Of a DNA stretch of 64,000 bases, positions 488 through 60,819 are shown piece after piece. Position numbers and translations under genes: made by a program. Origin of the DNA: Gemella sanguinis ATCC 700632 (GTDB taxonomy: Bacteria > Bacillota > Bacilli > Staphylococcales > Gemellaceae); contig NZ_JNJO01000001.1 in NCBI RefSeq assembly GCF_000701685.1, forward strand, positions 1 to 64,000. Direction: 5' to 3'. Position 1 is the stretch's first letter. Each line of letters begins with the position of its first letter. The notes beneath the pieces were generated by a model. It did no database searches, was not told the origin of the DNA, and saw only the letters and a list, made by a program, of their open reading frames with translations.

Positions 488-829
488 ATGGCTAAAACAT
501 ATGATGTTGTTATTAAATCAACAGGAATGGGAAGTGGAGAACAAGTTCTAATTGATAACCTTATGAAAGGATTTATTCATACTCTTACTCAAAAAGAACA
601 CGTACCTCAACATATAATTTTCTATGGAGAAGGGGTAAAATTAACAACTAAAGGTTCAGAGTCGCTAGAAGATTTAGTAGAATTAGAATCACGTGGTGTT
701 AAAGTACTTTCTTGCGGTATTTGTGTAGATTATTATGATTTAACTGATTACCTAAAAGTAGGTGGAATTACAACAATGTCAGAAGTTGTTGATATACTAT
801 CAAATAGTGAATTAGTAGTAGAACCATAA
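488..829 (+). CDS. DsrE-like protein resembling the C-terminal domain of selenium protein YedF
   Basis: 113 residues forming one DsrE/DsrF-like domain, cytoplasmic. The order resembles the C-terminal half of YedF: an early STGMGSGE loop, IIFYGEGVKL in the middle, then VLSCGIC with a CxxC pair (Cys76, Cys79) and a KVGGITTMSEVVDIL end. YedF proteins normally have a TusA sulfur-carrier domain first; it is absent here, so this is a single-domain form. YedF is tied by genome context to selenium metabolism, but its reaction is not established. The next gene, 65 bases on, has an in-frame TGA, which makes a selenium-handling role an attractive inference. It could equally be a general sulfur-relay protein. 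The start is set by AAAGGGAGG. Confidence 0.75.
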   Translation: MAKTYDVVIKSTGMGSGEQVLIDNLMKGFIHTLTQKEHVPQHIIFYGEGVKLTTKGSESLEDLVELESRGVKVLSCGICVDYYDLTDYLKVGGITTMSEVVDILSNSELVVEP

Positions 830-894: not shown

Positions 895-2085
895 ATGAAA
901 GGAAAATTTAAACCTTTTTCTACCACATTAATTGGAAGTTTACCAAGGTCTAAAGAATTATTATCGCTAAAGGAAAGCAGTAATAATTATGATAAATTTA
1001 AATCACTTTATAGTGAAAAATTGTTAGAAGAGACACAAAAAGTGGTAGAGTTGCAAAAGGATTGCGGAATTGATGTATTAGTTAGTGGAGAATTAAATAG
1101 GGATAACTATATGAGCTATGTTGCAGAAATGGTTGATGGAATTAAGTTATTAAGTATGAATGACTTAAAAGAAATTACTACTAATCTTGAAAGCTTTAAT
1201 AAAAGTTTAGAAGAAATGGATGCAGCAGATAATACAATGAATAGTCCAATTTGTTATTCTAAAATAGATACTACACGTAGACTAAATGAATTAGAAGTAC
1301 ATAATTTTCAAAAATTTATTGATAGAGATTATAAGGTCACTTTACCAAGTCCGTATTTGCTAACTAGATCAATGTGGCTAAGAGAAATTACAGGTAAAGT
1401 CTATGAAGGAAGAAAAGAGCTAGGACATGATGTAGTAGAGTTACTGAAAAATGAAATAAGACATCTTGTTCAAGAAGGTGTAAATATAATTCAAATAGAT
1501 GAACCTATATTGTCAGAAGTTGTTTTTACAAATGAAAAAGCTGATAATTCTTTCTACTGAGGTGCTTTATCAGAGAAAGTCAAGGTTGACAAAGAATTAA
1601 AATTTGCTAGAGAGTTGCTGGAGCCAGTGTTGGAAGAAATAAGAAAACATGATGGGGTATTAAGTATCATGCATGTATGTAGAGGTAACTGGACTACTGA
1701 TGAGAGTGTATTGTTACAAGGAGCATATGATAAATTAGGTAAGTTTTTTGATGCACTTGATTTAGATATGTTAGCTCTCGAATTTTCTACACCTAGGGCA
1801 GGAGAAGTGGAAAAACTGTTTTCTAATAATTTTTTAGATACAAGAGTTATGTTAGGGTTTGGTTGCGTTAATCCCAGAAGTGAAGTAATAGAAACTCCAG
1901 AAGAAATAGTTGCTAGAGTAGAAGAAGTACTTCAATTTTTACCACCAGAAAGAATTTGGTTAAATCCAGACTGTGGATTTGCAACATTTGCTAAGAGACC
2001 ACTTAATCCTTATCCAATAATTCAAAAAAAATTAGAGAATATGGTTGCAGCATCAAAAATACTTAGAGAAAAGTATTGTAAATAA
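895..2085 (+). CDS. MetE-like methyltransferase, candidate selenoprotein (in-frame TGA, Sec222)
   Basis: Read through the TGA at 1558-1560 this is one 396-residue protein of the cobalamin-independent methionine synthase C-terminal (UROD/MetE) superfamily. The N-terminal half has TTLIGSLPRS near the start and IIQIDEP ending at residue 204. The half after the TGA has the expected zinc ligands: His260 and Cys262 in HVCRGN, Glu296 in ALEFSTP, Cys360 in NPDCGF. The frame stays open on both sides with no other lesion. The TGA falls in SFY-U-GALSE; as I recall relatives, this site reads MCGALSE, so selenocysteine would replace a Cys. A stem-loop at 1579-1590 fits a bacterial SECIS. The substrate is not known; such short MetE-like proteins need not make methionine. 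The alternative is a pseudogene by nonsense mutation, with 222 and 175 codon halves. The start follows TAGGAGG. Confidence 0.7.
1558..1590 (+). promoter_or_regulatory. Candidate UGA-Sec codon with SECIS stem-loop
   Basis: The in-frame TGA is at 1558-1560. GTCA (1579-1582) and TGAC (1587-1590) close a 4-nt apical loop AGGT (1583-1586); the A-T pair at the loop edge could also form. The loop begins 22 nt after the TGA, inside the spacing known for bacterial SECIS elements (about 16-37 nt), and carries G in its first two positions. The E. coli fdhF SECIS loop also contains AGGU, which SelB contacts. The stem is short, so this is suggestive rather than decisive. Confidence 0.55.
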
Positions 2086-2087
2086 AA

Positions 2088-2127
2088 AAATAGTGGATTA
2101 ATACTAAATAATATTAATCCACTATTT
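2088..2127. terminator. Bidirectional terminator between metE-like and the minus-strand cluster
   Basis: A 15-bp perfect stem, AAATAGTGGATTAAT (2088-2102) with ATTAATCCACTATTT (2113-2127), flanked by A-runs on the left and T-rich bases on the right. It serves the convergent genes ending at 2085 and 2129. Confidence 0.8.
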
Positions 2128-16852: not shown

Positions 16853-17030
16853 TAAGTGAGGTAGAGGTTGCGATTTTTAATAGTAGGGTAATGGAGAGTA
16901 TAGGGCTTAATGATGTTACCTGAAAGGAAACGTCGCCGAAACAGTATTAATCCTATGTTAATATTGTTGGGACTATATTGAATAAGTATAGGACTGTCAT
17001 AGTCGTAAGGCTATGTTGCGCTACTAATAT
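16853..17030 (+). ncRNA. Lysine riboswitch (L box)
   Basis: The leader carries the L-box landmarks in order: GTGAGGTAGAGGTTGCG, an internal AGTA, GAAAGGAAACGTCGCCGAAAC, GGACTGTCA, the small hairpin CATAGTC-GTAA-GGCTATG, and a closing TTGCGCTAC that can pair with GTAG at the 5' side (P1). Such aptamers bind lysine and lower expression of lysine synthesis or uptake genes; here the next gene is a lysine-permease-type transporter, which fits. The expression platform (17017-17105) has CTAC...TTTTG able to pair with CAAAATATGGTAG and then a T-rich run before the GAGGAGG site. I cannot settle whether this hairpin is terminator or antiterminator. The edges are approximate. Confidence 0.9.
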
Positions 17031-17121
17031 CTTGTTTTGGATGAGTATGTCAGAGTATGACTCACTGTACAAAATATGGTAGATGTTATGCTTTTTTATT
17101 TTTTTCGAGGAGGTTTTTATT

Positions 17122-60459: not shown

Positions 60460-60814
60460 GGGGATGTTTAGGATTCGACAGGGATACTAGTCTTCTTAGT
60501 GGCATGTAGGAGGGTTGGCTCCTTTAACAACACATCAGTTAAATATAACTGGCGAAAATACAAATTACGCTTTAGCAGCTTAATAAGCTAAAGGCTGATT
60601 ACTTTGTTTGACTGTGACAAAGCTAATCGGTTCATTAATTAGCAGTCTACGATTTTTCTCTTCCGTTTGTAGAGAAAAATAAGAGATTAATCAAACTCGT
60701 TTTTCATTGCCTGTTTATCGGCTTAAGTGAAAAATTAAATTTAATAGGTAAACTAAACATGTAGAAGCTAAGGGGAGGTATTTCTGGACGCGGGTTCAAA
60801 TCCCGCCATCTCCA
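60460..60814 (+). ncRNA. ssrA: Transfer-messenger RNA
   Basis: The 5' end GGGGATG (60460-60466) pairs with CATCTCC (60807-60813), giving the tRNA-like acceptor stem; GATTCGACAGGG and GCGGGTTCAAATCCCGC are the conserved D- and T-arms. The tag frame starts at GGC (60551): GENTNYALAA then tandem TAA TAA, so the degradation tag ends in the ALAA recognised by ClpXP. The middle holds pseudoknot stems (for example TCTCTTCCG and the later GAGAAAAATAAGAG region). The CCA end is not fully encoded. It frees stalled ribosomes and tags the incomplete protein. Confidence 0.97.
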
Positions 60815-60819
60815 TATCG

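Follow-up and report, generated by a model that had tools for sequence, protein, structure and literature searches.

The UGA codon inside a MetE-like gene of a Gemella-type genome is almost certainly read as selenocysteine (Sec), with the short hairpin that follows it acting as its SECIS element; binding of the hairpin by SelB, and the actual insertion of Sec, are inferred. Our computational analysis finds the UGA to be conserved, Sec and Cys to exchange at its position, the hairpin to be conserved and to covary, the Sec machinery to be complete, and the zinc- and homocysteine-binding residues to be kept. The family of MetE-like selenoproteins to which the product belongs has apparently not been described so far.

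The window (the whole 64,000-nucleotide stretch of DNA analysed) is the start of a contig of a 1.8 Mb genome, whose nearest named relative in the tree is Gemella bergeri. Features in and around the gene are collected in Table 1. Elsewhere the window carries a lysine riboswitch (16854-17031; Rfam RF00168, 121 bits) and a tmRNA gene (60460-60817) with the tag GENTNYALAA.

Table 1. Position and basis of the features in and around the MetE-like gene.
Feature	Position	Strand	Basis and remarks
DsrE-like protein, 113 aa, the counterpart of YedF's C-terminal half (sulfurtransferase-like selenium metabolism protein)	488..829	+	TIGR03527; upstream partner gene
MetE catalytic-domain-like gene, almost certainly for a selenoprotein	895..2085	+	396 codons, one in-frame UGA; PF01717, full-length ortholog alignment, AF2 TIM barrel
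UGA, almost certainly read as selenocysteine (residue 222)	1558..1560	+	19 UGA orthologs, Cys elsewhere; SelA, SelB, SelD and tRNA-Sec in genome
Core of the inferred bacterial SECIS hairpin	1579..1590	+	arms GTCA 1579-1582 and TGAC 1587-1590, loop AGGT 1583-1586; covariation and synonymous-site conservation
Terminator-like inverted repeat	arms 2088-2103 and 2112-2127	.	found by reading the letters; lies after the full-length frame, not after the UGA

An in-frame UGA within a conserved gene

The full frame exists only if the TGA stands for an amino acid, and it is the sole frame in the window in which a single TGA is flanked by long open stretches on both sides. Its product matches PF01717, the MetE catalytic domain (7e-33), and also methionine synthase models, but falls below every NCBIfam equivalog cut-off for methionine synthase (at best 138 bits against 406). 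No NCBIfam selenoprotein model matches the product. The gene occurs in none of the phage records, and its plasmid matches are to distant, non-UGA forms.

Homologs were gathered from a contig search and from whole genomes drawn from the order, from two families, from one genus and from the class. A UGA at the same codon is present in 19 orthologs, which align across their full length and represent no fewer than four families (Gemella, Facklamia, Aerococcus, Companilactobacillus and others). The remaining 27 homologs, 38-48% identical to the query and including a second copy in the query genome itself, all carry Cys at this position. In the tree a single split, with support of 100/99, separates the Sec forms from the Cys forms. 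The frame is at least as well conserved downstream of the UGA (mean identity 63%) as it is upstream (53%).

The query genome encodes the machinery that Sec insertion demands: an operon selD-yedF-DUF3343-selB-cysteine desulfurase (csd)-selA (L056), with SelB well above cut-off, and a tRNA-Sec scoring 68.7 bits, above gathering. SelB exceeds the cut-off in each of the 19 UGA carriers, and tRNA-Sec is present in all 12 of those tested; of 22 genomes checked for the pair, the same 17 have SelB and a tRNA-Sec above gathering. The UGA form of the gene is confined to SelB-positive genomes. Five SelB- and tRNA-Sec-positive relatives (G003, G004, G006, G007 and G011) are without the Sec form. As a separate observation, selD of the query genome (L056, G000:C2:178000-190500, minus strand, upstream of 9602) has an in-frame UGA of its own, at CGGU-NSKIG, so that its SelD is probably also a selenoprotein; selD of Facklamia (L057) has an in-frame UGA likewise.

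Were the UGA a genuine stop, the locus would be a decaying pseudogene or would encode two half-proteins, and the hairpin would be a chance palindrome. Comparable hairpins are indeed common, with a 4-bp Watson-Crick stem and a G-containing loop at a permitted spacing after 576 of the 2220 TGAs in the window (26%, both strands); moreover, the 56-nt region folds to -5.6 kcal/mol, and 155 of 200 shuffles fold equally well. Such a stop is, however, hard to reconcile with a UGA shared by 19 orthologs, or with a downstream frame under at least equal protein-level constraint. All four residues that align with the MetE zinc ligands (H260, C262, E296 and C360) are kept, and all are encoded downstream of the UGA. 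The hairpin, in addition, is under synonymous constraint (see below), and because of this conservation a chance origin is contradicted. We consider a genuine stop very improbable.

The UGA might also be read as some other amino acid without a SECIS, either as Trp under an altered code or by near-cognate misreading, and a frame that is open through the UGA is compatible with this. The non-UGA homologs, however, always have Cys at the aligned site and never Trp. The gene itself writes Trp as TGG, the window contains no other readthrough frame, and the UGA form is limited to SelB-positive genomes. We give this alternative scarcely any credence, and we reject TGA as Trp on the basis of the Cys in all non-UGA homologs.

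The hairpin downstream of the UGA

The first-pass annotation had described a stem-loop GTCA-AGGT-TGAC at the spacing used by bacterial SECIS elements, and this structure is present as described, the TGA and the loop lying exactly 22 nt apart; in essence the SECIS interpretation is supported as well. The accompanying claim, that G occupies the first two loop positions, survives only in part: one of the two is G, but not both, since the Gs stand at positions 2 and 3 (A-G-G-U). The published rule for G, at least one in the first two positions, is satisfied all the same. Among the 2220 TGAs of the window, only this one has a loop at +22 of the form NGGN.

The bacterial SECIS (bSECIS) model comprises an apical loop of 3-9 nt on an upper stem of 4-16 bp, at least one G within the first two loop positions, a UGA-to-loop distance of 16-37 nt and, as a search threshold, an MFE of -7.5 kcal/mol or lower; some bSECIS elements lie outside the model (PMC13188914). 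Loop and stem comply (4 nt and 4 bp, with 5 bp possible in about half of the 19 UGA orthologs), as do the G at loop position 2, invariant across the 19 orthologs, and the 22-nt spacing, which is the same in all 19. The energy threshold is failed, the window giving between -3.1 kcal/mol (the 18-nt hairpin by itself) and the value given above for 56 nt; several orthologs do reach -7.5 kcal/mol over 45-60 nt. Since the threshold is a search filter and not a biological requirement, we still call the element SECIS-type, and a SECIS predictor that applies this cut-off would probably miss it. Single-sequence folding, no better than shuffles, lends no support, and no Rfam family matches at the hairpin site. 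Lack of a stable stem had been named beforehand as grounds for rejection, and this holds by half: the window's own stem is weak.

Judged from the aligned sequences, conservation of the hairpin in relatives is far beyond chance. That TGA-bearing relatives might lack any loop at this spacing had been put forward as a second ground for refutation; it is false, as 19 of 19 can form the 4-bp stem in the same columns. The suggestion that third positions would be telling was borne out, for among 366 six-codon windows of the gene, the one that begins at the hairpin (codons 229-234, 1579-1596) ranks first in synonymous conservation. In the Sec group its observed minus expected conservation is 0.411, against a background across the 366 windows with a mean of 0.034 and an sd of 0.067; the Cys group gives no synonymous-conservation signal at the hairpin position.

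Compensatory changes in related genomes, which the first-pass annotation had proposed as a check, are also found. Across 18 distinct sequences four of the five pairs have changed on both sides, a score equalled by none of 500 shuffles, and versions of the structure slid along the alignment fail the test. Most of this evidence is supplied by a single divergent ortholog, L077, together with the fifth pair of L085, which is C-G where the others have G-C. In L077 the same columns read GCTC-TGGA-GAGC, giving three compensatory pairs and keeping GG although the peptide is ALES instead of VKVD; by chance, a Watson-Crick 4-bp stem would form at this site with a probability of about 0.004.

It remains conceivable that the hairpin is conserved only through the peptide V-K-x-D and that some other structure is the true SECIS. 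Of the 19 orthologs, 18 retain the peptide, and MFE predictions give equally good alternative folds in several orthologs. Yet third positions are fixed past codon-usage expectation exactly at the hairpin, L077 retains the hairpin with a changed peptide, and the fifth pair has switched sides in L085; we hold this explanation to be very unlikely. On the synonymous-site and covariation tests we reject both a chance hairpin and conservation driven by amino acids. What speaks against our reading of the hairpin as the SECIS is its 4-bp stem at -3.1 kcal/mol, the alternative folds of orthologs and the absence of direct evidence for Sec insertion.

Compared to bSECIS elements such as that of E. coli fdhF, the hairpin is shorter and weaker (4-5 bp, core -3 to -6 kcal/mol). 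Loops of the orthologs read AGGU, AGAU, AGUU or UGGA, and the hairpin sequence is unrelated to that of the fdhF element.

A MetE-type protein in a selenium context

The AF2 model of the product is a TIM barrel (pLDDT 86.8), and its best PDB matches are MetE proteins, with Z of 36-37 (36.7 to 3rpd). Besides the four residues aligned with the zinc ligands, the homocysteine-binding positions S15, E66 and D202 are kept; the roles of all seven are assigned by analogy with MetE. In fold, in the four zinc ligands and in the homocysteine-binding Ser, Glu and Asp, the protein thus resembles MetE and the one-domain MetE-like proteins (PF01717; 3rpd, 1ypx). It differs from both in an additional Sec or Cys, residue 222, which sits in a loop: the other PF01717 paralogs examined share the zinc and homocysteine residues but have no Cys at 222. 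Unlike MetE, it also has no N-terminal MetE domain, in addition to scoring below all equivalog cut-offs. The loop itself (214-228) is disordered in the AF2 model (pLDDT below 50), and for this reason we claim no distance between Sec and zinc. Known Sec methyltransferases likewise place Sec in a methyltransferase-type enzyme; these (arsenite methyltransferase, methylated-DNA-protein-cysteine methyltransferase and MduS) belong to other domain families, none of them MetE-like (PMC13188914, Table 1).

The gene immediately upstream passes the TIGR03527 cut-off of 110 with 124.9 bits over the C-terminal half only. In 16 of the 19 UGA orthologs a YedF-like gene precedes the MetE-like gene on the same strand; in L077 it is convergent, and none was found near L015 and L085. 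Carriers of selenium or sulfur of the YedF, DsrE and TusA types are partners of the selenoprotein, which is not of their family: the upstream gene is YedF-like, and DsrE and TusA neighbour the protein or are fused to it in distant relatives.

The association with the Sec trait extends to the Cys forms. Among 398 evenly sampled Bacilli, with SelB scored above cut-off, 13 of 13 genomes that carry the MetE-like family (Sec and Cys forms) are SelB-positive, compared to 85 of 398 overall (hypergeometric 9e-10, relatedness not corrected); for genomes with only Cys forms the count is 11 of 11 (2.5e-8).

In Gemella and the Lactobacillales the Cys forms have acyl-CoA dehydrogenase-like, binding-protein-like, MetE-like and OsmC-like neighbours. 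The operon of the Gemella Cys paralog is conserved (L046, L048 and L049) and consists of an acyl-CoA dehydrogenase-like (Rv1679-like) gene, a cytoplasmic-looking binding-protein-like (Rv1680-like) gene, the MetE-like Cys form and an OsmC-like gene; it recurs in Lactobacillales and in G173 lies near the sel operon (L121). In other Bacilli the context is DsrE, TusA-OsmC and MetE-like. On Paracoccus plasmids TusA, DsrE and a TusA-MetE fusion (Cys form; L132 13641-15122) are followed directly by selA and trxB; the P. versutus selA scores 568 bits to TIGR00474, and Paracoccus selB lies about 12 kb away. In G540 an OpuC/OsmF-type ABC transporter and a rhodanese precede the Sec form (L124 935-7305), a context suggestive of a substrate that is betaine-like or an organoselenium compound. 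Two Cys forms, L091 (G855) and L096 (G693), have TAA stops reported inside the match and are possibly decayed copies.

The protein could still be an ordinary methionine synthase in which Sec is neutral or protects against redox damage, without a role in selenium metabolism; in its favour, the protein preserves the MetE fold, the zinc ligands and the homocysteine-binding residues. Such a methionine synthase, merely upgraded with Sec, is possible, but we think it unlikely: within the 398-genome sample every genome that carries the family, be it in the Sec or the Cys form, is SelB-positive, the Paracoccus form adjoins selA and has TusA fused to it, and in other lineages the family's neighbours are DsrE, TusA, OsmC or YedF. 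Because the family tracks SelB and the gene contexts agree, we favor a role in selenium or sulfur trafficking.

Proposed function and significance

According to the model that we propose, SelB would recognise the hairpin and deliver Sec-tRNA(Sec) at the UGA, and the predicted product would be a MetE-type protein of one domain and 396 residues that carries Sec at residue 222. Sec222 would sit in a probably mobile active-site loop, after the strand that bears the putative substrate-binding Asp (IQIDEP). The zinc site would bind a substrate that is either homocysteine-like or a methylated organoselenium compound, and Sec or Cys at 222 would take up the chalcogen (or its methyl group) or hand it on to carriers of the DsrE, TusA or YedF type. 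That the enzyme acts in selenium or sulfur trafficking through its zinc site and residue 222 is a tentative proposal; the chemistry is unproven, and the catalytic role is backed by nothing beyond gene context and conserved residues.

No MetE-type protein figures among the 119 prokaryotic selenoprotein families inventoried in May 2026 (PMC13188914), and a MetE-type selenoprotein is absent from the main texts of a 2022 review and of the deep-Sep paper. Our literature search found no description of a MetE selenoprotein; unpublished GenBank annotation is not excluded. The hairpin adds to a known type of element, while the enzyme is a new, Sec-bearing form of MetE. Too weak for a SECIS search filtered by free energy, the hairpin illustrates how such elements escape detection. 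Genes with the in-frame UGA are likely annotated as truncated in Gemella, Aerococcus and Companilactobacillus.

With this family a MetE-type protein joins the selenoproteins, in bacteria that are associated with humans or with food (Gemella, Aerococcus, Companilactobacillus). The whole MetE-derived family, in both its Sec and its Cys forms, may be an unrecognised part of the bacterial selenium supply for selenocysteine, a suggestion that we make with considerable reserve: a zinc-dependent barrel would move selenium from methylated or amino-acid organoselenium to YedF, DsrE and TusA, and the Sec form would be made by the very pathway that it feeds. Since even its Cys form tracks the Sec trait, the family is a candidate, accessible to testing, for the still unresolved delivery of selenium to SelD.
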